Shown here piece after piece: positions 1,421-15,104 of a stretch of 49,459 bases of DNA. Position 1 is the stretch's first letter; each line of letters opens with the position of its first letter. The translations under genes were made by a program, and so were the position numbers. The notes under the pieces were generated by a model. The model worked only from the letters and a program-made list of their open reading frames with translations. It did not search any database and was not told the origin of the DNA. This DNA is from a virus. Location of the stretch: positions 1 to 49,459 of the IMG/VR virus record IMGVR_UViG_3300044949_001180, one strand, 5' to 3'.

Positions 1421-1626
1421 GGCGTCACCATCGCGACCTGCTGCCACGTCGTGTCGGTCGCAGCGAGCTTGTGGACGTAGTAGGTCTGGCCGCTCTTGGT
1501 GGCCCACTCGCGAGCTTTGAGGATCGCCTCGGCCTCGTTCGGCGCGGTGTTCACCATGCTCACGGCGTAGGACAGGGCGTACCGGGGTCGCCGGTCGATG
1601 ACGTAGATGGTTCGATGCGGGGTCAT
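1417..1626 (-). CDS. Small early protein, unknown
   Basis: A 69-aa protein (MTPHRTIYVIDRRPRYALSY...). Its start overlaps the upstream stop as ATGA and its stop overlaps the next start the same way, which fixes both ends. The middle NTAPNEAEAILKAREWA looks helical, flanked by predicted strands. No domain recognised. Confidence 0.6.
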   Translation of the reverse strand: MTPHRTIYVIDRRPRYALSYAVSMVNTAPNEAEAILKAREWATKSGQTYYVHKLAATDTTWQQVAMVTP

Positions 1627-1847
1627 CGTTCGCCCTCCAAGACGATATGCGCCGCGTGCATCTCTCTGGTCCACTGCGCGTAGGGCACCCCATCAGGCTT
1701 GAACAGGCCGCGCAGCGCCGCCCGAAGGCGAGCGTTCTCTTCGCGGAGCTTCGCCACCTCGACGCGGAGGCCCTCCTGCTCTTTCTTCCACTCGCGAAGG
1801 GCACGTTCGCCCTCGGACATATCCGCGTGCCATTGACTGTTACTCAC
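1623..1847 (-). CDS. Small coiled-coil early protein
   Basis: A 74-aa protein starting MSNSQWHADMSEGER. Residues 13-47 (KKEQEGLRVEVAKLREENA) form a clear heptad-rich coiled coil, followed by a short basic and aromatic tail. It is linked by overlapping stop/start codons to both neighbours. Likely a protein-interaction or accessory factor; function unknown. Confidence 0.6.
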   Translation of the reverse strand: MSNSQWHADMSEGERALREWKKEQEGLRVEVAKLREENARLRAALRGLFKPDGVPYAQWTREMHAAHIVLEGER

Positions 1848-2140
1848 TTGTCCTCCTCGGCGCAGTCCTCAAGATCCTCATCGGGCGCGCTCTCTTCTGC
1901 CCACTGGCGGTTTCGCAGAGCGTCGGCGTGGTTGAAAACCCACTCGGCAAGGGCATCGAAGTGCCGCCGATTAAGCCGGACGTATCCCTCGTGCCGATTC
2001 GCGGGCATGCTGCCGTACCCAAGCGTAACGGCTAGTTCGATCACGGCCTCGTCGCCGCTGTCTCCATCGAGCGCCTCGCAGGCGATTTCGGTCTCCCGGT
2101 CAGCGTCGCGCAGTCGCAATACGGTCGTCGTGTAACCCAT
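1844..2140 (-). CDS. Small acidic early protein
   Basis: A 98-aa protein starting MGYTTTVLRLRDADRE, placed at 2140 because GAGGAG lies seven to eight bases upstream; a longer start at 2182 would overlap the upstream gene. The C-terminus is very acidic (EESAPDEDLEDCAEEDK). No family recognised. Confidence 0.6.
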   Translation of the reverse strand: MGYTTTVLRLRDADRETEIACEALDGDSGDEAVIELAVTLGYGSMPANRHEGYVRLNRRHFDALAEWVFNHADALRNRQWAEESAPDEDLEDCAEEDK

Positions 2141-2141
2141 T

Positions 2142-2357
2142 TCACTCCTCCTCATCGTCTCGAAGCCACGCGCGTCCGTCATCCACGATCACCGTGAGCG
2201 GGGCACCGCAGCAGCACGTCCCCGTGTCGCCTTCCTGCCACCATGGATACGGGTGGCGAGGATCGGTGGGCCGATTCGGCGGCATCTCTTCGCAGGCGTC
2301 GCCGCAGCGCGGGCAGTCGAGCAGCCTTCGCCAGCCATCGTCGGTGAAGAGGCTCAT
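2142..2357 (-). CDS. Small zinc-ribbon-like early protein
   Basis: A 71-aa protein with CPRCGDAC near residue 15 and CCCG near residue 49, the spacing of a short zinc ribbon, then an acidic end. Its start overlaps the preceding gene's stop. Such mini zinc ribbons are common in phage early operons and are usually of unknown function. Confidence 0.6.
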   Translation of the reverse strand: MSLFTDDGWRRLLDCPRCGDACEEMPPNRPTDPRHPYPWWQEGDTGTCCCGAPLTVIVDDGRAWLRDDEEE

Positions 2358-2590
2358 GGCTCACCTCTCAGGATGGAATCTTTCCAGCCCGCCTCGCGGC
2401 AGAATCGAAGGAAATGCTCCGCATTTTCGGGGTCGGTCTTGTGGAGCCGCTTGGCGAGCATCGCGACGTTGTGGATCGCCAGCAGCGCGCGATCGTAGTT
2501 GACCTCGACCTCCCACTCGTTGCAGATGTGGCAGAAGCGCGAAGGCACGCCCTCGTACGTCTCCTCGCTCCAGTTGTGGTTGCAGGTCAT
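2354..2590 (-). CDS. Small early protein with CxH...CxxC motif
   Basis: A 78-aa protein beginning MTCNHNWSEETYEG. Cys3, His5 and the pair CHIC at 20-23 could bind one zinc ion. The remainder is helical (NYDRALLAIHNVAMLAKRLH). It overlaps both neighbours by 4 nt. Function unknown. Confidence 0.6.
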   Translation of the reverse strand: MTCNHNWSEETYEGVPSRFCHICNEWEVEVNYDRALLAIHNVAMLAKRLHKTDPENAEHFLRFCREAGWKDSILRGEP

Positions 2591-3252
2591 CGCTCGTGCT
2601 CCCCGCGCTCGATGGCGTTGCCGAGATCGATCATCACGCCGCGCTCGCGCATCGACACGCGATCGTCCATCGTCGCGTACGCAAGGCGCGCGTGAATGTA
2701 CGCGACGATCCGCTGGCGCTCGTTGAACGCCTCGTTGTGTACCGCCTGCTCCGCGTCGGCCTCGGCGTGCGCGAGGCGAGACTTGAGTTCGTCGCGTTCC
2801 CGCTCGGCGACCATCGCGCGGTGCTCGGCGGCGATGCGCTCGCTGTTCTTATTGTCCCGTTCCTCAGAGACCCGCTCAAGGCACTCGTTGAGGCTCGCGA
2901 GGTCTTCGCGCCACATCGCAGGAAGCTCGGCATCGAGCTTGGCCTGTAGCTCGTCGCGCTCCTGAATCAGCTTGGCGTGAATCAACGCCGCGTCGATGAG
3001 CGCCGCCTTGGTCGAGGTCAGCTCGGACTCAAGACTGGCTACGTAAGAAGTTCGATCGACGGGTTCATGCGGCTGCCATACAGACGGCTGTGCCGCCTTT
3101 GCCTCGGCTTTGAACTCGTCACGCTCTCGGCGCAGCTGGTCGTATTCCTCGCGTGCTCCAAGTGCAGACAGTCGCCACGCTTCAGCCTCTGCATCGTCGC
3201 GCCCGACCTGCTGGCGCACTACTGCGGCGCAGAGCTTGATCACGGCGCTCAT
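2587..3252 (-). CDS. Long coiled-coil early protein
   Basis: A 221-aa protein dominated by charged heptads (QERDELQAKLDAEL, ERERDELKSRLAHAEADAEQ), so mostly alpha-helical coiled coil over residues 35-180. The composition resembles the genes at 300-989, 3249-3809 and 3806-4198, hinting at a family of related structural early proteins. No catalytic motif. Overlaps both neighbours by 4 nt. Confidence 0.65.
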   Translation of the reverse strand: MSAVIKLCAAVVRQQVGRDDAEAEAWRLSALGAREEYDQLRRERDEFKAEAKAAQPSVWQPHEPVDRTSYVASLESELTSTKAALIDAALIHAKLIQERDELQAKLDAELPAMWREDLASLNECLERVSEERDNKNSERIAAEHRAMVAERERDELKSRLAHAEADAEQAVHNEAFNERQRIVAYIHARLAYATMDDRVSMRERGVMIDLGNAIERGEHER

Positions 3253-3809
3253 GGCTGCGTTCCTTTCGCGCTCTTGAGTGCATCGAAAAGAGCTGCGATG
3301 TCGTCGATGATGGCTTGTGAATCAGGGTGCGCCACAGAGATAGGCGAGAAGTCCCAGCGCGTGATCTTGTCTGCCGCCTTGCAGACATCTGCCAGCGCGC
3401 GCTCCAGTAGCTGCACCTTCAGTTCCAGCGCATCACGTGTAAGCTCCTCTGAGTCGGCGTCTCGATATTCCTGATGGAGAGAGCGCAGAGTCGACTCCGC
3501 TTCCTCTGCCCGCCGCTGATACAGATCGAGCAGCGCGACAGCGTTCACTTCATCGCCATCGCAGCCGTGCCCGATCAGGCGGTCACGCTCGTCCTCTAGC
3601 GCCGTCACAACGTCAGTCAGATGCGACGCGTGCACTGGGTATATCCGCAGCGCCTTCGCCGCCGACTGCTCTGCGACGGCACGCTGCACCGCACCCTCGA
3701 CCCATAGCGAGAACTTGACGCCAGCGGCCCGTGCAGCCTCGCGCGCATAGTCCCGCAGCACTGGCTCTACCCACGCAGACAGCACGACGCGCCCGTCTTT
3801 GTGGCTCAC
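3249..3809 (-). CDS. Early protein with possible RHH-like N-terminus and coiled coil
   Basis: A 186-aa protein. The N-terminus (RVVLSAWVEPVLRDYAREAA ... SLWVEGAV) resembles a ribbon-helix-helix strand and helices. Residues 65-145 are coiled-coil-like (ALEDERDRLIGHG, YQRRAEEAESTL). It may be a DNA-associated regulator, but the resemblance is weak. It sits in the overlapping early operon. Confidence 0.55.
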   Translation of the reverse strand: MSHKDGRVVLSAWVEPVLRDYAREAARAAGVKFSLWVEGAVQRAVAEQSAAKALRIYPVHASHLTDVVTALEDERDRLIGHGCDGDEVNAVALLDLYQRRAEEAESTLRSLHQEYRDADSEELTRDALELKVQLLERALADVCKAADKITRWDFSPISVAHPDSQAIIDDIAALFDALKSAKGTQP

Positions 3810-4198
3810 GACTCACTCCGCAGCTTCGCGCCGAGCGCCTTGATCTCGGCGAGCGTCTGCGCTGACTGCCGCTCGCGATACGCGCGCTCCGCATCCTCGG
3901 CCCGGCGCAGCGTGTCGCGCTCAACGGTCGCCAGCATCAACTCGCGCTTTGCCGCGTCGAGCTCCGCGCGCAGCTCGCGCACCTCGCGGTCGTGGTGGTC
4001 GCGCATGATGTCGCAGAGCCGCTTGGCGCTGTCACGCTCGCCCTCGGCGCGGAACGCACGCATCGTCATGGCCTGCGCTGCTTCGATCACCTTGTCGTTC
4101 GGTTCCCCGTGCGCGTGCAGCGCCTCAGCGACCTTGTCCAGCGCTTCGCAGAGCTGGTCGTACATATCGCGCAGTCGTGACTCTTCCATCGTGCTCAT
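3806..4198 (-). CDS. Coiled-coil early protein
   Basis: A 130-aa protein starting MSTMEESRLRDMYDQL. The ATG at 4198 is chosen because a GAGG sequence inside the recurring leader ACAAAGTGAGG sits just upstream; a GTG six bases earlier is too close to it. Most of the protein is predicted helix (RAELDAAKRELMLATVERDT). Function unknown. Confidence 0.6.
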   Translation of the reverse strand: MSTMEESRLRDMYDQLCEALDKVAEALHAHGEPNDKVIEAAQAMTMRAFRAEGERDSAKRLCDIMRDHHDREVRELRAELDAAKRELMLATVERDTLRRAEDAERAYRERQSAQTLAEIKALGAKLRSES

Positions 4199-4200
4199 GT

Positions 4201-4449
4201 TCACCTCACTTTGTTTGCTTGCTCGACCTGACCAATCATCGCCTCAAGCCATCGCAATTTCGCGTTGATGCCATCGGCCAACGTGCCCCGCGTCCACGCG
4301 CTTCCCAGCGCGCGCTTCGCGGCATCAACTTCGGCCCGCAGATTATCACGCTCGACCGTCGCCGCATAGAGTGTGCGGCCGAGCGCATCGATCATCGCTT
4401 GTGCGCGTTGCAACTGCTCGCGCGCGTCATCATCAGAACGGAATGTCAT
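4201..4449 (-). CDS. Small helical early protein
   Basis: An 82-aa protein starting MTFRSDDDAREQLQRAQ. It overlaps the 3' end of the ssb gene by 17 nt and is probably translationally coupled to it. Helical and charged (ATVERDNLRAEVDAAKRAL), with a segment similar in style to the 3806-4198 protein. Function unknown. Confidence 0.55.
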   Translation of the reverse strand: MTFRSDDDAREQLQRAQAMIDALGRTLYAATVERDNLRAEVDAAKRALGSAWTRGTLADGINAKLRWLEAMIGQVEQANKVR

Positions 4450-4852
4450 CGGTGTCGTTCGCCGCATCGCTGGCCCAGCTATCGCCAGGGCGCGCGCCGC
4501 GCTTGTGCTCGATCAGCGGGCCGTCGCCGCTGCTCTCCTGCTTGCCGCCAAGCAAGGTCAAGTCGTTGACTGCGACCTCGAGGCCGAAGCCTTCGGTGCC
4601 ATCTTTGCGCGTGAACTTGCGCGGCTTGAGTCGCCCGTTGACTGCGACGCGCGTGCCCTTCTTGAGAAACTGTGCGACGCCGGTCTTGCCGTCGAAGAGC
4701 GTCAAGTCAAAGAACGTCGTCTCGTCCTCGCGGCGATAACCACTGACGGCCAGCGCGACGTTGCAAACGGACTTGCCGCTCTTCGTCTGACGCACCTCAG
4801 CGTCGCGCACGATGCGCCCGGTCAGGTTGATGTTGTTCTGGTCTGCGCTCAC
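4433..4852 (-). CDS. ssb: Single-stranded DNA-binding protein
   Basis: A 139-aa SSB that coats single-stranded DNA during replication and recombination. The OB-fold is recognisable (NNINLTGRIVRDAEVRQT, VAVNGRLKPRKF, GLEVAVNDLTLLGG), followed by a short linker and the acidic tip DTDDIPF, the signature tail by which SSBs recruit partners. The GTG start at 4852 overlaps the upstream stop as GTGA, with GAGGAGG upstream. It lies next to the RecT-like gene, so the two probably act together in annealing. The length is slightly short of bacterial SSB (about 160-180 aa), as is common for phage versions. Confidence 0.92.
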   Translation of the reverse strand: MSADQNNINLTGRIVRDAEVRQTKSGKSVCNVALAVSGYRREDETTFFDLTLFDGKTGVAQFLKKGTRVAVNGRLKPRKFTRKDGTEGFGLEVAVNDLTLLGGKQESSGDGPLIEHKRGARPGDSWASDAANDTDDIPF

Positions 4853-5721
4853 TGGTCCTCCTCTTCTGCGATGTCCGCACGCCGCTCGGCCTCGAGCTGC
4901 GCGATCAGTTGCTGCCGCGCCTGCTCGACGCGCTGCCGCGCACGATGCGCCGCCGACGTCACGCGAGCCCGGTCGTCCTTCGTGAGCTGCTGCCAGTGCT
5001 GCGCGACGAGCGCCGTACGCAACTGCGTGATCTCGACGTCGGTGCTCGCGACGTCGTACGCCGCGACGATGCGCGCGCACGCGTCGTCGAGGACCGCTGC
5101 CGCCGCTGTAGCGGGCTCGCCATGCGCCTCGATGACAGCAGGCGACGACGCAGCCTCGACGCGCTCAGCGGACTGCTGGACGCGCTGCGCGGGCTGCTCG
5201 TCGCGGTCGTCGCCGCCACGCAGTTCGTCGGGCGTGTAGACGCTGCCCGCGAAGCAATCGGCCGCATACGCGCGAGCGCCTGCCGTGATGGCGCGCGCCC
5301 TCAGCATCGCACGCGGGTACTTGCGCCACGTCGCCGAGCCCCACAGGCCCGCACGCTCGGCGTCCTGACGCGAGAACGTCGAGACGTACGGCGGCATCCC
5401 GGCGCGGCTGAGACGCACCGACGCGCACTCGTCGTCGTCGCGCAGCCACTCGAGCGCGATGCCGTGCGCGAGCATACGGCCGCTCACGAAGCTGGCGTCC
5501 ATGCCGAGTTTTCCGTTGACGAGGTAGAAGCTGCGCAACGCCGCCATCGGGCCGACGCCAAGCTCACGGCCTGCGAGGATGACCGCAGCGACTTGCGCCG
5601 AGTTCTTGAAATGGTCAGGGATGAAGCCGCCGCGCGCCTGCGCCAGCGTGTCCGCGAGTCGCAGCACGTCTGCCAAACTCGCGACCATGTCGAGGCCGCT
5701 GCTCTTGATGATATCAGTCAT
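4849..5721 (-). CDS. RecT-like single-strand annealing protein
   Basis: A 290-aa protein. The region around residues 68-170 (LRSFYLVNGKLGMDASFVSG ... WRKYPRAMLRARAITAGARA ... GSVYTPDEL) matches the pattern of RecT-type phage recombinases, which anneal complementary single strands. The C-terminal third is Ala, Arg and Gln-rich helix (ARQRVEQARQQLIAQLEAER). It is next to ssb and a Gp157-family gene, a usual phage recombination cluster; no exonuclease partner is evident here. The assignment is from pattern memory, so moderate. Confidence 0.65.
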   Translation of the reverse strand: MTDIIKSSGLDMVASLADVLRLADTLAQARGGFIPDHFKNSAQVAAVILAGRELGVGPMAALRSFYLVNGKLGMDASFVSGRMLAHGIALEWLRDDDECASVRLSRAGMPPYVSTFSRQDAERAGLWGSATWRKYPRAMLRARAITAGARAYAADCFAGSVYTPDELRGGDDRDEQPAQRVQQSAERVEAASSPAVIEAHGEPATAAAAVLDDACARIVAAYDVASTDVEITQLRTALVAQHWQQLTKDDRARVTSAAHRARQRVEQARQQLIAQLEAERRADIAEEEDQ

Positions 5722-5747
5722 GTGTTCTCACCTTGTTTGGATAGGGG

Positions 5748-6257
5748 TCACTTGATTCGCAGCACGCGGCCGCGCTCGACGCGTGTCCCAGGCACGCATT
5801 CGCCGTGCGCCTTGAGTACATCGAGGATGGCGCGCTTGTCAATCTCAATTTTCGTCCGCAAGAACTCGGCGGGCACGCTGCCCTCGTCCTCGACGACGAC
5901 ACGCTGCGGCCCGTCACCGACGCTAATGGTGTGCGTGGCCGACCTGATCTTGCTGACGCCCGCCGCGTCGAGGCTCATGCGCAGGTAGTCACGCAGCGAC
6001 TCCGCGCGCCGCTCGCGAGCCTGCCGCCGCGCCGCCAGCCGCTTCTCCTCCGCGCGCATCATCTCGGCCTCGGCGTCGAGCTGCGCGAGTACGTGCGCGA
6101 TGGACGCGGCCTTGGCGTCGATGGCGTCGCTGAGCGCGTCGAGGTGCGCGTGGCCGTCGCTGGCGTCACCGTCCTCGTCGAGCGCGTCAATGAGATACGC
6201 GTATGCCGGTGCGAGTTCGTAGAGCCGCAGTCCCACTTTGTTCGTCGTGTCACTCAT
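5748..6257 (-). CDS. Siphovirus Gp157 family protein
   Basis: A 169-aa protein fitting the Gp157 family: N-terminal LRLYELAPAYAYLIDAL, a central coiled coil (KAASIAHVLAQLDAEAEMMR), the RAESLRDYLRMSLDAAGVSK block, then beta-rich ISVGDGPQRV, AEFLRTKIEIDKRAILDVLK and a terminal GTRVERGRVLRIK. Gp157 has been linked to phage resistance in Streptococcus and is regularly found beside phage recombination genes; its biochemical role is unclear. The ATG follows a variant of the recurring ACAAAGTGGAGG leader. Confidence 0.88.
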   Translation of the reverse strand: MSDTTNKVGLRLYELAPAYAYLIDALDEDGDASDGHAHLDALSDAIDAKAASIAHVLAQLDAEAEMMRAEEKRLAARRQARERRAESLRDYLRMSLDAAGVSKIRSATHTISVGDGPQRVVVEDEGSVPAEFLRTKIEIDKRAILDVLKAHGECVPGTRVERGRVLRIK

Positions 6258-6729
6258 TTTCAGTCCTCCACTTTGTGTATGCCTTAGCCGATGATGCTGC
6301 CCGCTTGCCGATGCCCGCTGCCAGCGCAGCGCGCCGTGCCTGCCAGTCGTCGTCGCCCTCCGCGATGTGCTCGCGCGCGATCTCGTCCGCGATTCCGCGA
6401 ATGACGTCTTCGACGTGCGCCTCGAGCGTCTCGCGCGGGATGCCGCGCACGTGCTGAAAATGCTCGCGCACCGCCGCGCCCACCTCGAGCATCGCCAGGT
6501 CGACGTCGTGCTCCGCTCGCTGCTCGGCGTCGAGGATGCTCTCTGCGACCGCGCCCAGATGCGCCCGCTCGCTGTCGGGCGACGCGCTCAGCAGCTCGGC
6601 AGAGTACAGCCGCTCAGCCGTCAGGTCGTCGACGAGGTCGCCGGGCTCAAGACCGAGCGCATCCTCGCGCGACGTGGCGAGCACGGGCACGACGTACTCA
6701 GCGCGGACGCGCAGCCAGTAGCGGCCCAT
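6250..6729 (-). CDS. Early protein, unknown
   Basis: A 159-aa protein starting MGRYWLRVRAEYVVPVLATS. The N-terminus is beta-like and the rest helical and acidic. The start ATG overlaps the stop of the 42-aa gene upstream (TGATG), and its end overlaps the start of the Gp157-family gene by 8 nt. No domain recognised. Confidence 0.6.
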   Translation of the reverse strand: MGRYWLRVRAEYVVPVLATSREDALGLEPGDLVDDLTAERLYSAELLSASPDSERAHLGAVAESILDAEQRAEHDVDLAMLEVGAAVREHFQHVRGIPRETLEAHVEDVIRGIADEIAREHIAEGDDDWQARRAALAAGIGKRAASSAKAYTKWRTENE

Positions 6730-6857
6730 CACGACGGCCTCCCAGCGCGCAGCACGCGCGACCGGAGCTGCTGGCAGGCGGCGCACTGGCAGCCCTGCGC
6801 GAGCGCCGTGAGGGCCGCGTGGAGGCCGACGTGCGGGTGTGGTGCAGTGCGGCTCAC
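6729..6857 (-). CDS. 42-aa Cys-motif small protein
   Basis: A very short gene, GTG start (VSRTAPHPHVGLHAALTAL) followed by GCQCAACQQ, a CxCxxC knot that could bind a metal. It fills exactly the gap between its neighbours: its GTG overlaps the upstream stop as GTGA, preceded by GAGGTGG, and its stop overlaps the next ATG as TGATG. That double fit is the main evidence. Function unknown. Confidence 0.55.
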   Translation of the reverse strand: MSRTAPHPHVGLHAALTALAQGCQCAACQQLRSRVLRAGRPS

Positions 6858-7129
6858 GACGCCACCTCGACGCAAGCGGCGAGTTCGCGCTCGTTCTCGG
6901 CCGCGGTCTCGATCAGCGTCTCCGCGAGGGACACGTCACGCACGACCCGCTTGACGGGGTAGATCCCCACGGTCGCCGCCGACGCGGCAAGGCCGCAAGA
7001 CACCGCGAGGTCGCGGAGCGCGGCGAGTGCGACGTCACGCGATTTGCGCGTGAGGTAGTAGCGTGCTTCCCCATCAGGGGACGCATAGAAACACACGTTC
7101 TGGATTCCGAACAAAGTCTTTTGGCTCAC
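6854..7129 (-). CDS. Small early protein ending in EVAS
   Basis: A 91-aa protein starting at GTG (VSQKTLFGIQNVCFYASPDG), overlapping the upstream stop as GTGA. It looks like a compact alpha/beta fold (EARYYLTRKSRDVALAALRD). The last residues, EVAS, are encoded by the same 16-nt junction sequence found at the ends of two other genes in this block. Function unknown. Confidence 0.6.
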   Translation of the reverse strand: MSQKTLFGIQNVCFYASPDGEARYYLTRKSRDVALAALRDLAVSCGLAASAATVGIYPVKRVVRDVSLAETLIETAAENERELAACVEVAS

Positions 7130-7485
7130 GACGCCACCTCGTACGCCGTCTCGCTGCACCAGACGCTGTACGCGTCGGGCTCACCGGCCTCGAGCATCGC
7201 GCCGAGCTGCGCGACGTCGTCCTCGCTGACGATGATGTACGCGCCGATCTCGTGAGCGTAGTAGCGGATGCCGCGCTCGGTGCGCGTGCCGCTGATCTTG
7301 TCGATGCCGATGCTGAGATGGTCGATGGTCATGAAATCCTCACTTTGTTCGCGGTCAAGCTCGGCCGCGTGCGCCGAGCAGAGATGGCAGACGAGGTCGT
7401 CGACGATGCGCGTCGTCGTCGCGCGTGCGCCGCAGAGCTGCTGCGCGGCGTCGTCGGTGGGAGCGATGCAGCGGTGGGCGGTCAC
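7126..7485 (-). CDS. Early protein with N-terminal Cys cluster
   Basis: A 119-aa reading frame from a GTG that overlaps the HNH gene's stop (GTGA). The first half has CIAP, LCGARA and CHLCSAHAAELD, a small zinc-binding pattern; the second half (MTIDHLSIGIDKISGTRT ... GAYIIVSEDDVAQL) looks globular. An internal ATG at 7332, preceded by ACAAAGTGAGG, could start a 68-aa form alone. Both forms are possible. It ends in EVAS. Confidence 0.55.
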   Translation of the reverse strand: MTAHRCIAPTDDAAQQLCGARATTTRIVDDLVCHLCSAHAAELDREQSEDFMTIDHLSIGIDKISGTRTERGIRYYAHEIGAYIIVSEDDVAQLGAMLEAGEPDAYSVWCSETAYEVAS

Positions 7486-7817
7486 GCGGCCACCGTCGTC
7501 GGCAGGGGGCGCGCAGCGGCGCGGCGGATGCGGCGCACGTCGACGCCGATCTGACGGCACCAGCGCGTGAGCGGCATATCGTGGCGCGTGCTGTTGCACG
7601 AGCGGCAGGCGACGACAAGGTTACCCGCGACGTCCGCGCCGCCCGCGCTGCGGGGCAGCAGGTGGTCGAGATGAAGCTTCGCGCCGCTGCTCGCCTCAGT
7701 CGCGCCGCAGTACTGGCACGCGTGGCCGTCGCGCGCGCGGATCATGAGGCCGACCTTGCCAAGCCGCTTGATCAGGCTCTCGCGATTCGGGCGGCTGGCG
7801 TGTTCGTTGCGCGTCAT
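7482..7817 (-). CDS. HNH endonuclease
   Basis: A 111-aa HNH nuclease. The motif is complete: CQYCG, then KLHLDHLLPRSAGG with the catalytic His-Asp-His segment, then NLVVACRSCNSTR, so two CxxC zinc pairs frame the active site. Small HNH proteins of this type nick DNA; in phages they are homing nucleases or packaging partners. It is far from the terminase, so a stand-alone or early-acting enzyme is more likely. The ATG at 7817 is eight bases from AAGG; ATG 7823 is too near. It is the first gene after the promoter at 7863-7891. Confidence 0.88.
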   Translation of the reverse strand: MTRNEHASRPNRESLIKRLGKVGLMIRARDGHACQYCGATEASSGAKLHLDHLLPRSAGGADVAGNLVVACRSCNSTRHDMPLTRWCRQIGVDVRRIRRAAARPLPTTVAA

Positions 7818-7862
7818 CGTCATCACCTTGTTGCGTCGCAGCCCCGCGCTGCTGACTCCCGA

Positions 7863-7891
7863 TATGTATACCGCGTGCTAGCACCGCGCAA
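7863..7891 (-). promoter_or_regulatory. Leftward promoter with palindromic operator
   Basis: On the minus strand: -35 TTGCGC (7886-7891), 17-nt spacer, -10 TACATA (7863-7868). The spacer holds the perfect palindrome GTGCTAGCAC (7875-7884). About 110 nt around it, including the leader down to the AACAAGGTGA ribosome-binding site, resembles the promoter at 8586-8614. It would drive the HNH gene and the leftward block. Confidence 0.6.
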
Positions 7892-7930
7892 GTTTATTTT
7901 GCACGGTGCCTGTCGATTTTCGCGAAGCCC

Positions 7931-8080
7931 TTATTTTTGCGCGGTCTGCGCCAGCATCAGCAGCGCGTCGAGCTGCGCCGCATCGACCGTCGCGTGCGAG
8001 ACGCTGACCGCCGTGCGCCCGCTCGGCAGCGTCATCCGCGAGCGCCACGTGCCGCCGATGCGCCAGGAGACGCAGGTCAC
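7931..8080 (-). CDS. 49-aa early protein
   Basis: A short gene starting at GTG (VTCVSWRIGGTWRSRMTLPS) that overlaps the upstream stop as GTGA with GAGGTGG upstream. The C-terminal half is a helix (HATVDAAQLDALLMLAQ). It is the last gene before the promoter region at 7827-7930. Function unknown. Confidence 0.5.
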   Translation of the reverse strand: MTCVSWRIGGTWRSRMTLPSGRTAVSVSHATVDAAQLDALLMLAQTAQK

Positions 8081-8535
8081 GACGCCACCTCGTCGCGGCT
8101 GCTCAGCTCGAGCTCGACGGCAGCGCGCCACGCAGCGGCGTACGCGTCGCGGATGGCGGGCCAGCCGATGGCGTCGACGGTCGCGCGCGAAAGGCCCGCC
8201 AGTGCTGCGGTGCCGTAGACGCCCCGCGCGTCCCAGTGGTCGCTGCTGCCCGCGTCGGGGTCGTCGAGGACGTCGGCGGTGCACTCGCCCGACGTGCGGT
8301 CGTCGTCGACCATTGCAGCGGCCAGCGTGGCGAGGTCGGCGGCGTAGTCGTACTCCACGACGATGAGGTCCGCGAGCAGCGCGTCGACCGTCGTGTCCAG
8401 CGCGCGAGCCGCGCCGATGCGGCAGCTGTAGCCCGCGTCGCTGTAGTAGGCGTCGAGCGCCTCGTCGGCGGTGCGGCCGGGGTAGAGGCCGAGATTCTGC
8501 GCCGACGTGCGGTTCGTGATAGAGTAGAGATTCAT
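8077..8535 (-). CDS. First gene of the leftward early block, unknown
   Basis: A 152-aa protein (MNLYSITNRTSAQNLGLYPG), acidic and Ala/Asp-rich, ending in the recurring EVAS. The ATG at 8535 is nine bases after AAGG of the AACAAGGTGA leader; the ATG at 8541 is closer to it. As the first gene behind the 8586-8614 promoter it is probably expressed immediately after infection. No homologue recognised. Confidence 0.6.
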   Translation of the reverse strand: MNLYSITNRTSAQNLGLYPGRTADEALDAYYSDAGYSCRIGAARALDTTVDALLADLIVVEYDYAADLATLAAAMVDDDRTSGECTADVLDDPDAGSSDHWDARGVYGTAALAGLSRATVDAIGWPAIRDAYAAAWRAAVELELSSRDEVAS

Positions 8536-8585
8536 GGTCATTCACCTTGTTACGTCGCGTCGCCCCGTGCGCCGCTGACCCCCTA

Positions 8586-8614
8586 TATCTACGCCCGGTG
8601 CTAGCACCCGTCAA
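8586..8614 (-). promoter_or_regulatory. Strong leftward early promoter with operator
   Basis: On the minus strand: -35 TTGACG (8609-8614), exact 17-nt spacer, -10 TAGATA (8586-8591). The spacer contains the 12-bp palindrome GGTGCTAGCACC (8597-8608), placed where a bound repressor would exclude RNA polymerase. This is the best promoter candidate seen in the window. Confidence 0.7.
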
Positions 8615-8675
8615 GATTTATTTTCGGGGTGCGTGCCGATTTTCTTCCGCGACGATTCTCGAAGATTCCGCTCGC

Positions 8676-8700
8676 GTGCTAGCGCGGCCCGTGCTAGCGC
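8676..8700 (+). promoter_or_regulatory. Two GTGCTAGCGC operator-like sites
   Basis: GTGCTAGCGC occurs at 8676-8685 and 8691-8700, 15 nt apart, directly upstream of the ATG at 8708. They share the GTGCTAGC core with the operators inside both leftward promoters, one base away from the perfect palindrome. The arrangement suggests one regulator acting on both sides of the divergent region, perhaps the protein encoded at 8708. Confidence 0.5.
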
Positions 8701-8707
8701 TCGCGCC

Positions 8708-9037
8708 ATGACGAAACCATCTGCCTCGCTCCCAGTCCTGTACGCCCGCGTCCCTGTCGAGACGTACGCCCTCGCGCAGCTGCTGTCCGGCGCGGGCAAA
8801 ACGTCGATCTCCAGGTGGATCGCGGACCTCATCGAGACGCAGCGCGGCACGCTCGGTGGCCAGCCGCTGCCGCCGTACGCGCAGCCCGTCGCAGCCGAGC
8901 ACGAGCCCGGCTACGCAGTCGCCGCTGTCGCGCCCGTCAAGCGTGGTCGCGGCAGGCCGCGCAAGGCAGCGCCCATCGACCGCGAGGACGGCCACCAGCG
9001 CGCAGCAGAGGCGGCGTGCAGCAGCGGGGATGAGTGA
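8708..9037 (+). CDS. Ribbon-helix-helix protein with AT-hook
   Basis: A 109-aa protein. Residues about 10-42 (LYARVPVETYALAQLL ... SISRWIADLIE) fit a ribbon-helix-helix DNA-binding fold: a short strand, helix, turn and the S.SRWI.DLIE helix. Near residue 80 is KRGRGRPRKA, an AT-hook. Both are DNA-binding elements. It is the first rightward gene and has two operator-like sites immediately upstream, so an autoregulated switch protein is a reasonable inference, not proven. Confidence 0.65.
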   Translation: MTKPSASLPVLYARVPVETYALAQLLSGAGKTSISRWIADLIETQRGTLGGQPLPPYAQPVAAEHEPGYAVAAVAPVKRGRGRPRKAAPIDREDGHQRAAEAACSSGDE

Positions 9038-9270
9038 TGGACCGCAAGACGATCGTGACGTGGGCCGTCGAGTCTACGGTGTGGAACGGCAGCTCGTGGG
9101 AGTGGGTGCGCTTGTCGAGGCACCGCTCGCGCGAGGCTGCGGTGCGTGCGTCTGAGAAGGCGCAGCGCCGCGCGACTATGACAGGCATCGCCGTCCGTAT
9201 CGTAGAGTCGCGCATTATCGAGGGCGTCCGCGATGGCTGGAACATCTCGTTCACGAAGGAGGTGACGTGA
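9037..9270 (+). CDS. Small protein, unknown
   Basis: A 77-aa protein (MDRKTIVTWAVESTVWNGSS) with a basic helix (RHRSREAAVRASEKAQRRAT) and a beta-like end. The start ATG overlaps the preceding stop (TGATG). Its opening MDRK and the DNA around the start are shared with the next gene. Function unknown. Confidence 0.6.
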   Translation: MDRKTIVTWAVESTVWNGSSWEWVRLSRHRSREAAVRASEKAQRRATMTGIAVRIVESRIIEGVRDGWNISFTKEVT

Positions 9271-9503
9271 TGGACCGCAAACTGCGCCGCTCCCTGCTGC
9301 TCGACCTCGCATCGCGGCATATCGCCGTCGCTCGTCGTGGCGGTGCACAGGCCATCGCCGCGCTGCGCGACGCTGCAATCTGCGCGCTGCTCGCGACGCG
9401 CGACTCCGACAACGTGGCGCTGCCCGACGAAGAGGTGGTGTCGCCAGCGCTGCCCGCTCAGGACGGCGACCCGCGCATCAACGGCAAGGGCGGTGACGCA
9501 TGA
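9270..9503 (+). CDS. Small helical protein, unknown
   Basis: A 77-aa protein (MDRKLRRSLLLDLASRHIAV) behind a strong AAGGAGGTGACGTG ribosome-binding region; the start overlaps the upstream stop. The first 50 residues are amphipathic helix, the tail is polar. Function unknown. Confidence 0.6.
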   Translation: MDRKLRRSLLLDLASRHIAVARRGGAQAIAALRDAAICALLATRDSDNVALPDEEVVSPALPAQDGDPRINGKGGDA

Positions 9504-10018
9504 GCCGCTTCCTCGACGACGTCATCATGGGCGCGATTGCCGCAAGCATCATCGTCGGCCTAGGCCTCGACTCGTGCTCGTGCTCGTCGCCGCTACAGGC
9601 GCAGCCACGCCCCGCGCCCGTCGCGGAGCCCGGCGACCTTGAGGACGTCGCGCGCTGCCTCGTCGCGGAGAACGTGCCGGGCACCGACTGGGACGCCATC
9701 CTCGACGTGCTCGAGCGTCGAGCTCGACGCGCACACGTCAGCGTCGGCCGCATGGCGCGCGCGTATTGCGCCGTCCACCGCGCGACTACGCCGACGAAGA
9801 GGCAGGCCCGCATCCGCGCGCTACCTGCGACTGACAGCACGCGGCGGCTGCTCGACAGCTACCAGCGCGCCCTCGTCGCAGCGCGTCGTGGCGGTCCTAG
9901 ACGATGCACCGCTGACCACTGGGGCGACAGAGGCCACGACACCGCGCGAGCGCTGCGCCTCGGCTGGCTGCGCGTCGATTGCGGGCAGACGGCGAACGCG
10001 TTCTGGCGGTTGCACTGA
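9500..10018 (+). CDS. Membrane-anchored or secreted protein, unknown
   Basis: A 172-aa protein. Residues 8-24 (VIMGAIAASIIVGLGLD) form one hydrophobic segment followed by a Cys/Ser cluster, like a signal anchor. The body has Cys53 and the block TDWDAILDVLERRARRAHVS with RMARAYCAVHR. Two Cys-containing C-terminal segments (RRCTADHWGD, RVDCGQTANAF) might form disulfides outside the cytoplasm. The hydrophobic start plus Cys pairs suggest periplasmic location. No family recognised. Confidence 0.6.
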   Translation: MSRFLDDVIMGAIAASIIVGLGLDSCSCSSPLQAQPRPAPVAEPGDLEDVARCLVAENVPGTDWDAILDVLERRARRAHVSVGRMARAYCAVHRATTPTKRQARIRALPATDSTRRLLDSYQRALVAARRGGPRRCTADHWGDRGHDTARALRLGWLRVDCGQTANAFWRLH

Positions 10019-10128
10019 CGGCGCGCGCGGCGTAATCACGTCGCGGACCAGCAGCTCGACGCCGTCGCGACCTCCCTACCCGCGACGAAAGGCGTTTGGC
10101 TGCTGGTTCACTTTGATGCGGAGGCTAC

Positions 10129-10159
10129 TTGACGACGAGCGCCACGGTGGTACGTACCA
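10129..10159 (+). promoter_or_regulatory. Possible promoter and palindrome upstream of the low-GC island
   Basis: TTGACG at 10129-10134 is followed after 16 nt by TACGTA (10151-10156), a weak -10. The 12-bp perfect palindrome TGGTACGTACCA (10148-10159) overlaps the -10, as an operator would. The rest of the 226-nt gap 10019-10244 shows nothing else recognisable beyond the ribosome-binding site AAAGGGG before 10245. Confidence 0.4.
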
Positions 10160-10244
10160 TGGGCCGACTCTGGGCATATCCAACAACAAGCCCCCGTGCG
10201 CTGGCAGGCGACACGAGGGCGATTCACCGCTGAAAGGGGCAACG

Positions 10245-10895
10245 ATGAACAGCAACGAACATAGCACGACGCAAGAAGAAGCCATGCACGCGCTCAGCCT
10301 TGCGATCAAGAACTTCAATGATGCCTTACGTGATGCGAAAGAGATGGAGTCTCCTGCGTTTCCGGCGTTGATGAACGACTACGAACAGCAGGTCATTACA
10401 TCTTATCGGAAGGCGTTTACGCAGGCGTGTTTTGCAGTGTCAAAGATTGCAGATGTGGTGCGTGAGCAATCATCGATCTTTGATGAATTGGAATCTAAGG
10501 TGATTGCGTCGGCTTTCGACCAGTGTGACGTTTACGACGCATACAACGTCTACATGAGCAATTCTCCTGCGATTGCTAAGGCTTTGTTTTTCCATCAGAT
10601 AAAGAACCAGCTTGCCGATTTTCACGTTGATACGTTTACCGCGGGCGAAACCTCAACAACCGATTTCGATTGTTTGAAGTGGTCGGAAAGTCTGATGCAA
10701 TCCATCATCGCGGTGAGCCATGCAATGCGGATATGGTTTAGCCTTTGTTCTATGTTCATCGAACTTGCGACGACGCTGGGTTATGAGATCAACATTGCAA
10801 ACGAAATGATGGATGAGTTGAAGCGTCAGTCGCGAGCTTACGTGTACGACTTGCGTCATTCCGCTTGGGAGATGAGCCATGCAGAACCGAACTGA
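10245..10895 (+). CDS. Low-GC helical accessory protein (moron candidate)
   Basis: A 216-aa protein (MNSNEHSTTQEEAMHALS), mostly alpha-helical, with no recognised domain. The codon use differs sharply from neighbours: in 10441-10500 only 25 of 60 bases are G or C, while flanking genes are far richer. The reading frame is open far upstream, but ATG 10245 has AAAGGGG five bases before it and the base composition changes there. It is followed with a 17-nt overlap by a small DNA-binding protein, so the two likely form one transferred unit. A toxin-antitoxin, superinfection exclusion or anti-defence role is possible. Confidence 0.65.
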   Translation: MNSNEHSTTQEEAMHALSLAIKNFNDALRDAKEMESPAFPALMNDYEQQVITSYRKAFTQACFAVSKIADVVREQSSIFDELESKVIASAFDQCDVYDAYNVYMSNSPAIAKALFFHQIKNQLADFHVDTFTAGETSTTDFDCLKWSESLMQSIIAVSHAMRIWFSLCSMFIELATTLGYEINIANEMMDELKRQSRAYVYDLRHSAWEMSHAEPN

Positions 10896-11064
10896 ACCGC
10901 GCACGAATCCGCAGAAGCCAAAACGGCAACGAGCCGAGCGGTTCAATTTGCGCCTAACCCTTGCTGAGAGAACCGCACTGAACGAGGTTGCCGCGGCTGA
11001 GCACCTGACGCCGTCGGCGTGGCTTCGTCGGGCGGCTATCCTTGCGCGAAAGGCTATGCGGTAA
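10879..11064 (+). CDS. Small RHH/MobC-like DNA-binding protein
   Basis: A 61-aa basic protein. After a basic N-terminus comes FNLRLTLAERTALNEVA and AEHLTPSAWLRRAAI, the strand-helix-helix layout of small ribbon-helix-helix or MobC-like proteins. It overlaps the preceding low-GC gene by 17 nt and could regulate it or act as its partner. The stop TAA overlaps the next ATG (TAATG). Confidence 0.6.
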   Translation: MQNRTEPRTNPQKPKRQRAERFNLRLTLAERTALNEVAAAEHLTPSAWLRRAAILARKAMR

Positions 11065-11264
11065 TGGGAACGTCCGCGAGGCTGTGCCCTGCGACGCTGC
11101 GCGCCGACTACGTGCGCCAGATGCGCGACATGGGCGCGGAGGTGTTGCGGCTGCGCGCTGCTGGCGAGCATGGCCTCGCGGACGAGCTGACGTGCTACCG
11201 CGACCGTCGAGGCGCGGAACTGCGGGCCCTTATTGTACGCGCCGACGAAGGGGCTGACGCATGA
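11064..11264 (+). CDS. Small protein, unknown
   Basis: A 66-aa protein (MGTSARLCPATLRADYVRQM), helical and charged, in an overlapping chain with both neighbours. GC-rich codon use returns here, marking the end of the low-GC island. Function unknown. Confidence 0.55.
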   Translation: MGTSARLCPATLRADYVRQMRDMGAEVLRLRAAGEHGLADELTCYRDRRGAELRALIVRADEGADA

Positions 11265-11656
11265 TCGACGCCGTGCGACGCGCCCGGCTGTCCGCGTTGG
11301 TCGCCGCCGACCTCGACGCCATCGAAGCGCGGGACGTGCTGCCGCCGTGGTTCGGGCTTCCCGAGGACGCGCGCGTGCTCGAGGCGTGGCGCGAGCTTGT
11401 CGCCGTGGACGTCTCCGACCGCACGCGCCACATCGACGAGGTGCACGCCGACCTCGTGCGCGCGCGTGCCCGCTGCGACCTTGCGCTGGCCGTGCGTGAC
11501 GCGGAAATGCGCGAGGCGCTCGATGCGACGCGGCCCACGCTGCGGCGGCTACAGGCTGAGCTAGCGCGGCTGTCGGCTGCGGACCTCGTCGCGCTGGCCG
11601 AGGAGGATGGGCCGCTAGGATTCAGCGCACGGTGTTTGACGCACCGTGGCGTGTAG
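11261..11656 (+). CDS. Helical protein, unknown
   Basis: A 131-aa protein (MIDAVRRARLSALVAADLDA), with a central coiled-coil-like region (DEVHADLVRARARCDLALAV). Start overlaps the upstream stop as ATGA. No family recognised. Confidence 0.6.
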   Translation: MIDAVRRARLSALVAADLDAIEARDVLPPWFGLPEDARVLEAWRELVAVDVSDRTRHIDEVHADLVRARARCDLALAVRDAEMREALDATRPTLRRLQAELARLSAADLVALAEEDGPLGFSARCLTHRGV

Positions 11657-11686
11657 AGTAGCGTTGACGTGTTCGCGTAAAAGAAT

Positions 11687-11715
11687 GGGCTCGCGGCGTG
11701 TCAGCGCCCGAGCCC
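11687..11715 (+). other. RNA hairpin upstream of the replication genes
   Basis: GGGCTCG (11687-11693) pairs with CGAGCCC (11709-11715), with a further inner GGCG/CGCC stem and a six-base loop. There is no U-run, so it is not a standard terminator. It lies in the 153-nt gap before the replication initiator and may shape the leader RNA. Confidence 0.45.
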
Positions 11716-11741
11716 GTGATCAGGAAAGAAAGGATTTCCCG

Positions 11742-11810
11742 ATGCGGTTTTGTATATCGAAAACGGTCGTCCGTCCAGCTAGATCGCGCGCCGAAAGCGA
11801 GGTGCGCTGA
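11742..11810 (+). CDS. 22-aa leader ORF before replication initiator
   Basis: MRFCISKTVVRPARSRAESE plus two residues, with AAAGGA upstream of its ATG and a stop that overlaps the initiator's ATG (TGATG). The tight coupling suggests translation of this peptide sets initiator expression, but such a short frame can be fortuitous. Confidence 0.35.
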   Translation: MRFCISKTVVRPARSRAESEVR

Positions 11811-12682
11811 TGGTCTGGTTCAAAGTGGACGACGGGTTTCATGACCACCCGAAGCTTGAAGCGCTGCTCGAAGGCAAGTACGCCGTCGAGGCAATTGCGC
11901 TTTGGACGCTGGCTGGAAGCTGGTGCGGAAAGCACCTGACCGATGGCGAAATCAACTTGAGCAAGGTCGCGCGACTGGGCATCGCGCGTCACGAAAAGGC
12001 CGCGGCCGAGTTGATTCGCGTTCGACTTTGGGAGAAAACCGCGACTGGTTTTCGCTTCCACAACTGGCTCAAGTACCAGCAGTCGCGCGAAGAAGTTGAA
12101 CATAATCGCTCCGAAACAGCGGAGCGTGTTCGCAGACATCGCGACAACAAGAAGCGAGAAGCGGGTCGCAAAATCATTCATGAATCTGAAAGTGTAACGC
12201 GTTACGCTGGCGAAAATGTAACGCCATCGGATCGCGTTACTAACGCATCATCTAACGGTACTGGTAACAGTGCCCATACCATACCCTTCCCTTCCCTTCC
12301 TATCCTTACCGAAAACCAAACCCAACCCAGCCCGTCCGTAACCGCATCCGTGTTGGTGGACGAGTCGCTTCGCTTCCCGGAGCCTGACGCGGAGAACTTC
12401 AACGAGCGTGACCTTGAGCGTGCTGTCAGCGAGGTGAGAGGCACGCCGTGGAAGATTCCGATTGCTCCACACCATCGCCGCCAAGCACGCGAGACGGCTG
12501 CGCTCATCATGACGTTTGCTTACGAACACGACTGCGACCCGCACGCTGTTGCCAGAGCTGCTTACGACGCGTGGCAAAAAGCGTCGAAGTCCATCGATCC
12601 GATGGCATGGTGCGCCAACTGGGCGGCTAAGCTGCCGCCTCCCCCTAAGCCTCAGGAGCCGTGGCGTGACCTCGAAGGCTGA
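11810..12682 (+). CDS. Replisome organiser (initiator / helicase loader type)
   Basis: A 290-aa protein. The N-terminal MVWFKVDDGFHDHPKLEALL with the winged-helix-like block to about residue 85 fits phage replisome organiser N-terminal domains. Then comes a polar linker of Asn, Ser, Thr and Pro (residues 125-185), and a C-terminal helical domain with ARAAYDAWQKASKSIDPMAW. Such proteins bind the origin and load helicase, and the next gene is a DnaB-like helicase, overlapping by 17 nt. The linker region has lower GC, a possible origin location. Confidence 0.75.
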   Translation: MVWFKVDDGFHDHPKLEALLEGKYAVEAIALWTLAGSWCGKHLTDGEINLSKVARLGIARHEKAAAELIRVRLWEKTATGFRFHNWLKYQQSREEVEHNRSETAERVRRHRDNKKREAGRKIIHESESVTRYAGENVTPSDRVTNASSNGTGNSAHTIPFPSLPILTENQTQPSPSVTASVLVDESLRFPEPDAENFNERDLERAVSEVRGTPWKIPIAPHHRRQARETAALIMTFAYEHDCDPHAVARAAYDAWQKASKSIDPMAWCANWAAKLPPPPKPQEPWRDLEG

Positions 12683-13985
12683 CCAGCTCTGCGACGTGAG
12701 CGCCGAGCGTGCGCTGCTCGCCGCGATGATGGCAGACCCGCGCATCGCGGACGCGTACAGCGTGCCCGCCGACGCGTGGACGACGCCGACGCACGAGGCC
12801 GTCGCCGCTGCGGTTCGTGCGCTACTCGACGCGTCGCTGCGCGTCACGGAAGCGACCGTCGTCTCGCACTTGCGCCAGCGTCAACAGCTGGATGCGGTCG
12901 GCGGCGCTGACGCCGTGTACGCCCTCGCAACGGGCGGCGCGCTACTGGTGGACGTCGCGGTCGTCCACGGGCGCGTGCTCGCGCTCGCGGGGCTGCGGCG
13001 CAAGGAGCGGCACCTGCTCGACGCGCTCGCGGCCGTACGCACCGAGAACGTCGCGGGCGCTGCCGTCCACTGCGCAGCCGCGCTCGAGGACGACGCAGCG
13101 TCGAGCGTCGAATCGTTCTCGCTCGCGGAGGGCGTCGAGCGCGCGTATCTGCGAGCCACCAGCACAGACCAGATTGGACTGGTGCCGACAGGTATTCGCG
13201 CCGTCGACGAGGCTATTGCGGGCCTTGGTCCCGGCGACCTCGCCATCGTCGGCGCAGACACGAACGTCGGCAAGTCGTCGCTGGCGCTGACGATGGGCGA
13301 GAAGCTCGGCGCGCAGAAACTGCTGCTCGGATACATCAGCATCGAAGACCCGCGCCAGCTCATCGAGGACCGTCTGCTGTCGCGATTCTCGCGCGTCAGC
13401 GGGCACGCCATCCGCGCCAAGCAGCTCAGCTACGAAGACCACGAGCGCATCGCGCACGCCGTCGCCACGACGCGGCAAGCTGGACCGACTGCGGGATTCA
13501 TCACGAGCTGCATTCCTGGCGCGACAGACTCCGACGTCGTGCGCGAGATGGCGCGACTCGTGCGCGTCATGCACTGCGACGTCGTCTTCGTCGACTACGC
13601 GCAGGCCATCACGTGCAGCACGAAGACCGAGAACACGCGTCTCGAGGTGCGCACCATCGCGTCGCGCATCAAGGCCGCTGCGTCGCGACTCGGCATCCCG
13701 GTCTGGCTCGCATCGCAGCTCACCGTCGAGCGCGGCGAGGGCAAGGAGCCGGGCAAGCACGACCTGCGCGATTCACGCGATCTCGCGCACCTCGCGGAGC
13801 TCGTCATCGTGCTGTGGCGCAAAGAGGAGCAGGACAGCGCGGTCGTCCACGGCCGCATCGTCAAAGGCAAGACGGGCGGCAATGGCGTCACGTTCCAATT
13901 CAAGCGCGGCGCGGGCGGCAGTCTGAAAGAGGTCGACGCCGTCGAGGATTCCACGCTCTACACAGACCGCAGGGGGCGTCGATGA
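12666..13985 (+). CDS. DnaB-like replicative helicase
   Basis: A 439-aa helicase that unwinds DNA at the fork. It has an N-terminal DnaB_N-type helical domain (SAERALLAAMMADPRIADAY), Walker A GADTNVGKSS near residues 196-205, Walker B DVVFVDYAQAI, and a C-terminal DLAELVIVLWR-type strand (here HLAELVIVLWR). The length is typical. The GTG start at 12666 has AGGAG seven bases upstream and lies within the initiator gene's end, so the two are coupled. Confidence 0.9.
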   Translation: MTSKADQLCDVSAERALLAAMMADPRIADAYSVPADAWTTPTHEAVAAAVRALLDASLRVTEATVVSHLRQRQQLDAVGGADAVYALATGGALLVDVAVVHGRVLALAGLRRKERHLLDALAAVRTENVAGAAVHCAAALEDDAASSVESFSLAEGVERAYLRATSTDQIGLVPTGIRAVDEAIAGLGPGDLAIVGADTNVGKSSLALTMGEKLGAQKLLLGYISIEDPRQLIEDRLLSRFSRVSGHAIRAKQLSYEDHERIAHAVATTRQAGPTAGFITSCIPGATDSDVVREMARLVRVMHCDVVFVDYAQAITCSTKTENTRLEVRTIASRIKAAASRLGIPVWLASQLTVERGEGKEPGKHDLRDSRDLAHLAELVIVLWRKEEQDSAVVHGRIVKGKTGGNGVTFQFKRGAGGSLKEVDAVEDSTLYTDRRGRR

Positions 13986-14341
13986 AACCGCACACGTGGA
14001 AGATCGACGGCGTGCTTGAATGGGGCGAGCCTCGTCGACGCTGCGCTCGATGCGGAATGCTCGCGCACTGGATTGGCGCGCGCGAGGCGTGCCCGTGGAT
14101 GATCTCGCAGCGCGCTGGCGACGAGCGCACGACGCTTGCTGCGGACGTCGTCCACTGGCCGGGACCGTACAAACACAACGCGTGGCGCACCTGCAAGCGC
14201 TGCTCGGCGCGGTTCCGGCAGCCGAAGCGTTACCGCGCGCTCGCCTACTGCGGACCAGTCTGCGTGCGCGAGCACGAGCGCGAGCGCAATCGGGACCACG
14301 CGGCAGCGTATCGCGAGCGGCAGGCAGGCGAGCAGCCGTGA
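13982..14341 (+). CDS. Zinc-finger paralogue 1
   Basis: A 119-aa protein with CARCGMLAHW near residue 20, a WPGPY motif, CKRCSARFR and a terminal CGPVCVREHERER. The Cys pairs suggest two zinc sites. It is the first of four tandem paralogues sharing this architecture. The start has AGGGGG upstream. Phage zinc proteins of this style are of unknown function, possibly nucleic-acid binding. Confidence 0.7.
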   Translation: MKPHTWKIDGVLEWGEPRRRCARCGMLAHWIGAREACPWMISQRAGDERTTLAADVVHWPGPYKHNAWRTCKRCSARFRQPKRYRALAYCGPVCVREHERERNRDHAAAYRERQAGEQP

Positions 14342-14712
14342 CTTTGGATGGCGAATACCTGGCGCACGATTGGACCGACGACGGCCACCGCGAAGTCGGC
14401 GGCGAGCGGCACCGATGCGCGCGTTGCGGTGCGCTGCGCCACTGGCCGATTGCGGACGATACGTGCATCGGTGTTCTCGACTACCGCGCGTGGAAGCCGG
14501 AGCACGTGCCGCCGTTGCATGAGGGCCAGTGGCCCGGCCCGTACAACGCAGGCCAAATCGGCCAGTGCATGGAATGCGCTCGCTCGTTTCGGCGTCCTAC
14601 AAGCCACGGGCAAGCGAAGACGTGCGGGCCGTCGTGCTCGCGGACGATGCTGCATCGCAACCGTCTCGAGCAGCAACGGGCAGCTCGCGCGCGAAAGCGA
14701 GCGGAGCGATGA
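14338..14712 (+). CDS. Zinc-finger paralogue 2
   Basis: A 124-aa protein from GTG 14338 (overlapping the upstream stop as GTGA). It contains HRCARCGALRHW, HEGQWPGPY, CMECARSFR and CGPSCSRT in the same order as its neighbours. A 28-nt block around HEGQWPGPY is identical to that in paralogue 3. Confidence 0.7.
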   Translation: MTLDGEYLAHDWTDDGHREVGGERHRCARCGALRHWPIADDTCIGVLDYRAWKPEHVPPLHEGQWPGPYNAGQIGQCMECARSFRRPTSHGQAKTCGPSCSRTMLHRNRLEQQRAARARKRAER

Positions 14713-15104
14713 TTGATGACGACGAGCTCGATGACGTCGGCGTCTACCTGCCGCACGACTGGCAGCACGAGGGCGAGCGCGAGGTCGGCGGCGAGCTGCG
14801 TCGGTGTCGTCGCTGCGGAGTGCTCGGCCACTGGCCTGCTGCTCACGCGACGTGCGTGGTCATCCTTAGCCGCGTGTCGATGGTGTCGTCCTCGCTTGGC
14901 CCGCTGCATGAGGGCCAGTGGCCCGGCCCGTATGTCGAGGGCGCAGAGCCGACGTGCGTTATCTGTGAGCGTCGGTATCGGCGCAACGTGCGACACGGCA
15001 ACAGCTCGACGTGCGGGCCGGTGTGCTCGCGCGAGCTGAGGATCACTGCGAAGCGCATTCAGCAGCGACGGCTCCGAGCCGAAGCAAAGGCACGCAAGGC
15101 ATGA
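14709..15104 (+). CDS. Zinc-finger paralogue 3
   Basis: A 131-aa protein starting MIDDDELDDVGVYLPHDW. It shows RRCRRCGVLGHW, HEGQWPGPY, CVICERRYR and CGPVCSREL. ATGA overlap with the upstream gene. It is closest to paralogue 2, with which it shares EVGGE and the exact 28-nt block. Confidence 0.7.
   Translation: MIDDDELDDVGVYLPHDWQHEGEREVGGELRRCRRCGVLGHWPAAHATCVVILSRVSMVSSSLGPLHEGQWPGPYVEGAEPTCVICERRYRRNVRHGNSSTCGPVCSRELRITAKRIQQRRLRAEAKARKA

Follow-up and report, generated by a model that had tools for sequence, protein, structure and literature searches.

The early region of the phage genome analysed here probably carries a self-limiting shut-off circuit, in which a small protein combining ribbon-helix-helix (RHH) and AT-hook features would act as an Arc-like repressor, CTAG-core palindromes would be its operators, and early leftward transcription would be turned down as the protein accumulates. 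The sites, the promoter-like boxes, the A/T tracts, the leader hairpins and their conservation are read directly from the window, that is, the whole 49,459-nt stretch of virus record IMGVR_UViG_3300044949_001180, and from its relatives; binding, repression, timing and the AT-hook contact are what we infer from them. Most likely, the control itself is of the ordinary on/off kind found in viruses and the unusual element is the protein design, in which an AT-hook is joined to an Arc-like RHH repressor.

CTAG-core sites in the early region

Two copies of GTGCTAGCAC (operators O1, 7875-7884, and O2, 8598-8607) each fall inside the 17-nt spacer of a leftward promoter, and two copies of GTGCTAGCGC (O3, 8676-8685, and O4, 8691-8700) stand 5' of the RHH/AT-hook gene at 8708-9037, with CTAG at -29 and -14, respectively, from the start codon of this candidate repressor. 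Both arrangements had been described in an earlier sequence-only reading of the region and are borne out here. The 8-mer GTGCTAGC occurs at 7875/7877 and 8598/8600, where the palindromes are perfect and match on both strands, and at 8676 and 8691; its sole further copy in the 49.5 kb is at 37504, in a tail gene. Counted strand by strand, the densest 830 bp of the window hold six matches, against never more than two in 200 dinucleotide shuffles, and the clustering of CTAG cores is far beyond chance. The cluster is the more striking because CTAG is depleted genome-wide, about fivefold in the window (32 occurrences seen versus approximately 156 expected from base composition).

Leftward promoter-operator-leader modules

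Both leftward promoters belong to homologous modules on the minus strand. Module 1 (7804-7942; nhmmer E 6.7e-32 to the module family) lies 5' of its first leftward gene, an HNH endonuclease (7482-7826, minus strand; Pfam HNH E 9e-13; likely start ATG 7817), and module 2 (8526-8666; nhmmer E 7.1e-38) lies 5' of a leftward gene of 154 aa (8077-8541) that is conserved in relatives and has no Pfam or PHROG match. Their homology, which the sequence-only reading had put at about 110 nt, comprises 76 nt at 75% and 26 nt at 81% identity, with a local alignment score of 115, where 1,000 shuffles reached no more than 35.

Within module 1, the -35 box TTGCGC (7886-7891), which aligns with the TTGAC boxes of other modules, is separated by 17 nt from the -10 box TACATA (7863-7868), an alternative being TATACA at 15 nt; within module 2, TTGACG (8609-8614), also aligned with the boxes of other modules, is followed at the same 17-nt distance by TAGATA (8586-8591). 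These promoters are called because their boxes are conserved in relatives, not because of a consensus scan, since an automatic scan, set to accept sites agreeing with the E. coli consensus at 9 or more of 12 positions, called no promoter in positions 1-15000.

An A/T tract abuts each -35 box (7893-7900 in promoter 1; ATTTATTTT, 8616-8624, in promoter 2). The window has a GC content of 66%, and A/T runs of at least 8 nt occur just four times in it; three of these fall in the two modules, two of the three directly upstream of -35 boxes. In the relatives, too, most long A/T runs of the loci fall within modules, and a tract adjoins almost every -35 box. Judged by position and composition, such a tract may be an AT-hook site and may also be an UP element for RNA polymerase, two readings that are compatible, and it may serve the polymerase alone.

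Downstream of each -10 box, starting after about 6-8 nt, the leader can form a 5' hairpin of the pattern GTC-A-GCGGC ... GCCGC-GAC, represented by GTCAGCAGC-GCGGG-GCTGCGAC in module 1 (7835-7856, minus strand) and by GTCAGCGGCGCACGGGGCGACGCGAC in module 2 (8554-8579, minus strand). Across 17 leaders, three of the five core pairs are altered on both sides, giving six covariation cells in total against a mean of 2.0 in shuffles that ignore the relatedness of the leaders, none of 500 of which reached six; these compensatory changes lend the predicted hairpin moderate support. Single-sequence folding of the leaders was only modestly better than that of shuffles, RNAalifold returned no consensus structure on the 17-leader alignment, probably owing to two length classes, and an Rfam search produced only a meaningless microRNA match. 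The hairpin may protect early transcripts at their 5' end.

The candidate repressor

The gene at 8708-9037 (plus strand) encodes a protein of 109 aa and 11 kDa whose assignment draws on an RHH profile, predicted helices and an AT-hook motif. Among all PDB sequences, Arc repressor is the best match of the family's RHH profile, ungapped over residues 7-43, at an E-value (0.07-0.12) that is not significant; a RelB-like RHH antitoxin model matches four of nine family members, with a best E-value of 0.0085 that is likewise subthreshold, and Pfam gave no RHH match for the protein. A short N-terminal stretch is followed by predicted helices at residues 17-29 and 34-49, an arrangement that fits RHH at low confidence (pLDDT 58-70), and Foldseek found no significant relative of either model, while phmmer with the RHH core alone found nothing. 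S33, at the start of helix 2, and R14, a basic residue of the strand, are invariant in all nine distinct sequences, and a serine at the first of these positions has a known role in RHH proteins (PMC2812701).

The tail carries the motif KRGRGRPRK within an AT-hook segment (residues 78-89, coded by 8939-8974, plus strand; Pfam AT_hook E 0.0083, 16.3 bits against a cut-off of 17.4), the RGRP core of which is present in 12 of 12 homologous proteins; a second AT-hook copy occurs in L056, L079 and L081. The RHH/AT-hook label of the sequence-only reading is kept here on the convergence of these features, every individual match staying below threshold. In the literature searched, ribbon-helix-helix and AT-hook were named together only in two general reviews.

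Conservation and turnover of the operators

Searches with window proteins recovered three close relatives (L001, L002, L003), then L056 and L057, and then L079-L084, with RHH/AT-hook proteins from 86% down to approximately 40% identical to that of the window. All nine distinct genomes bearing the RHH/AT-hook gene have two to three CTAG cores within 150 nt upstream of its start codon, a grouping with a per-genome chance probability of about 1e-5 to 6e-4, and in each of them the sites cluster 14-29 nt before that codon. A module profile search brought the number of distinct leftward modules to 17, spread over eight genomes; most of these have two, L084 has three, and a single one was seen in each of L002 and L003. 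The spacer measures 17 nt in every one of these modules; 12 of the 17 spacers contain a CTAG core, which in ten cases begins at position 10 or 11 when numbering starts from the -35 box. The remaining five, exemplified by GATATAGCAC, have decayed: four retain a half site or related sequence (GATATAGC, TGTATAGC) and one is mismatched (TATCAAGACA).

On the strength of this conservation, we regard the CTAG sites as a real, conserved operator system, which upholds the earlier proposal of an early control region with operators. Among 2.9 million viral contigs, the strict promoter-plus-operator pattern matches only in this phage family; the tandem-site pattern matched 42 stretches of viral contigs, about the number estimated by chance, with only three family records relevant. 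A search for hosts or prophages among bacterial genomes, conducted with the helicase, gave a single match, at 24%.

The operators also change in flavour between lineages. O2 is kept in L001, L002 and L003, and in L081/L082 the spacer operator is TGTCTAGACA at an unchanged position, with TATCTAGACA before the repressor gene and a second site there that lacks the core (GTGCTACC). L084 is mixed, with CTAGACAG (on the module's strand) in the spacer of its module a and TATCTAGACA plus CTGCTAGCGG before the gene. The left and right sites have thus changed in step, which is what a single protein reading both would lead one to expect. The putative recognition strand LPALFVRLPV is identical in L056 and L081, genomes with GCTAGC and TCTAGA sites, respectively, so that the strand does not explain the change of flavour; the N-terminal arm just before LP differs between them (SSK versus SVQ) and, in a comparison limited to these two lineages, is a candidate cause.

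Extent of the proposed circuit

A fifth element with CTAG, CAGCTAGATC (11776-11785), is found 31 nt upstream of the start codon of a replication initiation protein (11810-12682, plus strand; phrog_2447 E 3.6e-40), a possible further target. CTAG is kept 31-32 nt before the initiator in seven genomes, with the core shifted by 2 nt in L001/L002, and because it persists although its flanks have shifted by two, the initiator may share the same control.

The sequence-only reading had spoken of a complete early control switch with four operator copies. The fifth element and the further copies in relatives exceed that number, and "complete" goes too far, because neither a rightward promoter nor lysogeny genes were found: no sigma-70-like rightward promoter or Shine-Dalgarno sequence was recognised before the RHH/AT-hook gene, no tyrosine recombinase (PF00589) was matched in 12 records, and no serine recombinase (PF00239) or HTH_3 repressor (PF01381) in five. 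Without recombinases of either type or an HTH_3 repressor in those records, and hence without the integrase and HTH repressor gene of a lambda-type switch, a two-state choice between lysis and lysogeny is not indicated and the lysogeny reading was rejected; the circuit looks like an early shut-off instead. A possible rightward promoter of the replication genes was noted elsewhere, at 10129-10152 in the window, where TTGACG, followed after about 16 nt by a box containing TA, stands behind a hairpin element; several relatives have TTGACGCGCGCGC...TAAT at the matching place.

Proposed mechanism and alternative explanations

In the model that we consider likely, host RNA polymerase would start after infection at the two leftward sigma-70-like promoters and transcribe the HNH, RecT, SSB and other genes; the leftward set, which also includes Gp157, is of early type. 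As the RHH/AT-hook protein accumulates, its dimer would set a beta-ribbon on the spacer palindrome and block RNA polymerase, and the AT-hook would probably grip the A/T tract beside the -35 box, thereby also masking an UP element. The two sites before its own gene would limit synthesis of the protein, their positions at -14 and -29 suggesting autoregulation, and the replication initiator may be limited likewise by the site preceding it, so that early transcription would be shut off on a timed schedule, much as by P22 Arc.

The alternative that survives best, though we consider it unlikely, is that another protein binds the operators, be it the NikA-like RHH protein encoded at 10879-11064, the RHH-like protein at 3249-3809 or a host regulator. 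The first of these is the better-supported RHH protein (Pfam NikA-like E 4.9e-7) and is found in nine of 12 records, the window and eight relatives; however, the three closest relatives keep all promoter and repressor-gene sites with no match to it at E <= 1 in the whole record, which makes it an unlikely binder. The 3249-3809 protein was found only in the window and L002. The position of the sites follows the RHH/AT-hook gene in nine of nine genomes, and its product is the only small DNA-binding candidate found in every site-bearing genome; a host protein is a less likely binder.

Less probable still is that the protein acts as an activator or as an architectural, silencer- or nucleoid-like protein. 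AT-hook motifs are known from architectural proteins, and some RHH proteins are activators, for example AmrZ (PMC3325190). Yet the operators sit between -35 and -10 boxes at a normal 17-nt spacing with a near-consensus -35, where a bound protein would compete with polymerase, and they are specific palindromes rather than general A/T sequence. Activators that act on the spacer, of the MerR type, need spacers of 19-20 nt.

Partition sites are frequent targets of RHH proteins, which often repress their own operon as well, and the palindromes could by that token be centromere sites for an RHH centromere protein; this very improbable reading was rejected on the absence of a ParA-type ATPase (PF13614) from the five long records, window included, and on the location of the sites, which lie in promoter spacers at two separate genes and form no centromere-like array. 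That the sites are chance or a functionless by-product of module duplication is the least credible of all and was rejected as contradicted by conservation: the two left sites do derive from one duplicated module and are for that reason not independent, but the two right sites lie outside the duplication, and sites persist or have been rebuilt in place in relatives with repressors 40-48% identical, despite genome-wide CTAG depletion.

Comparison with known systems

The closest parallel to the proposed Arc-like shut-off is P22 itself, in which the Arc operator sits in the Pant spacer and Arc there blocks polymerase. Shared features are a small phage protein, putatively of RHH type here, an operator between -35 and -10, an ungapped profile alignment over the RHH core, and likely autoregulation together with a turn-down of early transcription; the profile match, at E 0.07-0.12, falls short of what would establish homology. 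Arc lacks the AT-hook tail, its operator is 21 bp long whereas the sites here are 10-bp CTAG palindromes, and, unlike in P22, at least two left promoters are combined with a divergent repressor gene and no antirepressor gene was recognised (for RHH proteins in the Arc context, see PMC2812701, PMC5569661). RelB-type antitoxins offer a second comparison, in that the promoters of RelB/RHH antitoxins contain short palindromic repeats which the antitoxin dimers themselves read (PMC2812701), several family members match the RelB-like model and the serine at the start of the second helix is conserved. Differing from such antitoxins, the candidate repressor has no recognised adjacent toxin gene, has putative operators at other promoters as well and carries the AT-hook tail.

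The stoperators of cluster A mycobacteriophages are asymmetric and number dozens per genome, whereas the palindromes here are few and mostly at promoters and no lysogeny module is seen; the resemblance lies in one repressor with several dispersed copies of its site (PMC6550527). With H-NS and Lsr2-type silencers the protein would share an AT-hook or AT-hook-like grip on A/T-rich promoter DNA (PMC4466236, PMC7074111), but the A/T tract here comes together with a specific palindrome, and regulation of particular promoters is more likely than genome-wide silencing.

Taken one step further, and only tentatively, the system might represent a previously undescribed class of phage repressor with a two-part reading of its target, the RHH part on a CTAG palindrome and at least one AT-hook on an A/T tract, coupled to a transferable promoter-operator-hairpin cassette that has been copied and shifted from one early gene to another. 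Should the AT-hook contact be real, it would provide a simple gain of specificity for an 11-kDa protein at AT-rich promoters in a GC-rich genome. The circuit gives a testable regulatory system for a phage group known from metagenomes alone, and the operator series (GTGCTAGCAC, TGTCTAGACA and mixed), together with repressors sharing one recognition strand, forms a ready set for studying co-evolution of protein and site.

Further features of the genomes

Gene order around the modules varies. Comparison of L056 (1310-2205) with the window (7800-8668) shows the HNH gene adjoining the repressor in L056 and the homologue of 8077-8541 lying farther away; because the genes behind the two modules have been exchanged in this genome, modules and genes have been reshuffled. 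Module 2 and the 8077-8541 homologue are separated by an additional gene in L001 (about 3065-3135) and L003 (about 555-625), with a conserved double hairpin, GCACCG/CGGTGC plus GGGCGC/GCGCCC, beside it.

A strong hairpin of about 90 nt, GAACCAGC...GCTGGTTC (-59 to -64 kcal/mol with a little flank included), is present in L001 (4666-4770), L002 (from 6859) and L003 (from 2061), where it follows a further GTGCTAGCAC palindrome after the homologue of gene 9500-10018; paired changes distinguish the L001 stem from that of L003. A related element, GGACCAGC...GCTGGTTC, is present in the window at approximately 10043-10112, where the palindrome is missing. The window's last 295 nt (49165-49459) are 95.9% identical to positions 303-597, with 12 mismatches, and are either an end overlap, though an imperfect one, or a partial copy of a gene, and a PAPS reductase-like gene at 44743-45516 is a candidate for an auxiliary metabolic or DNA-modification function.
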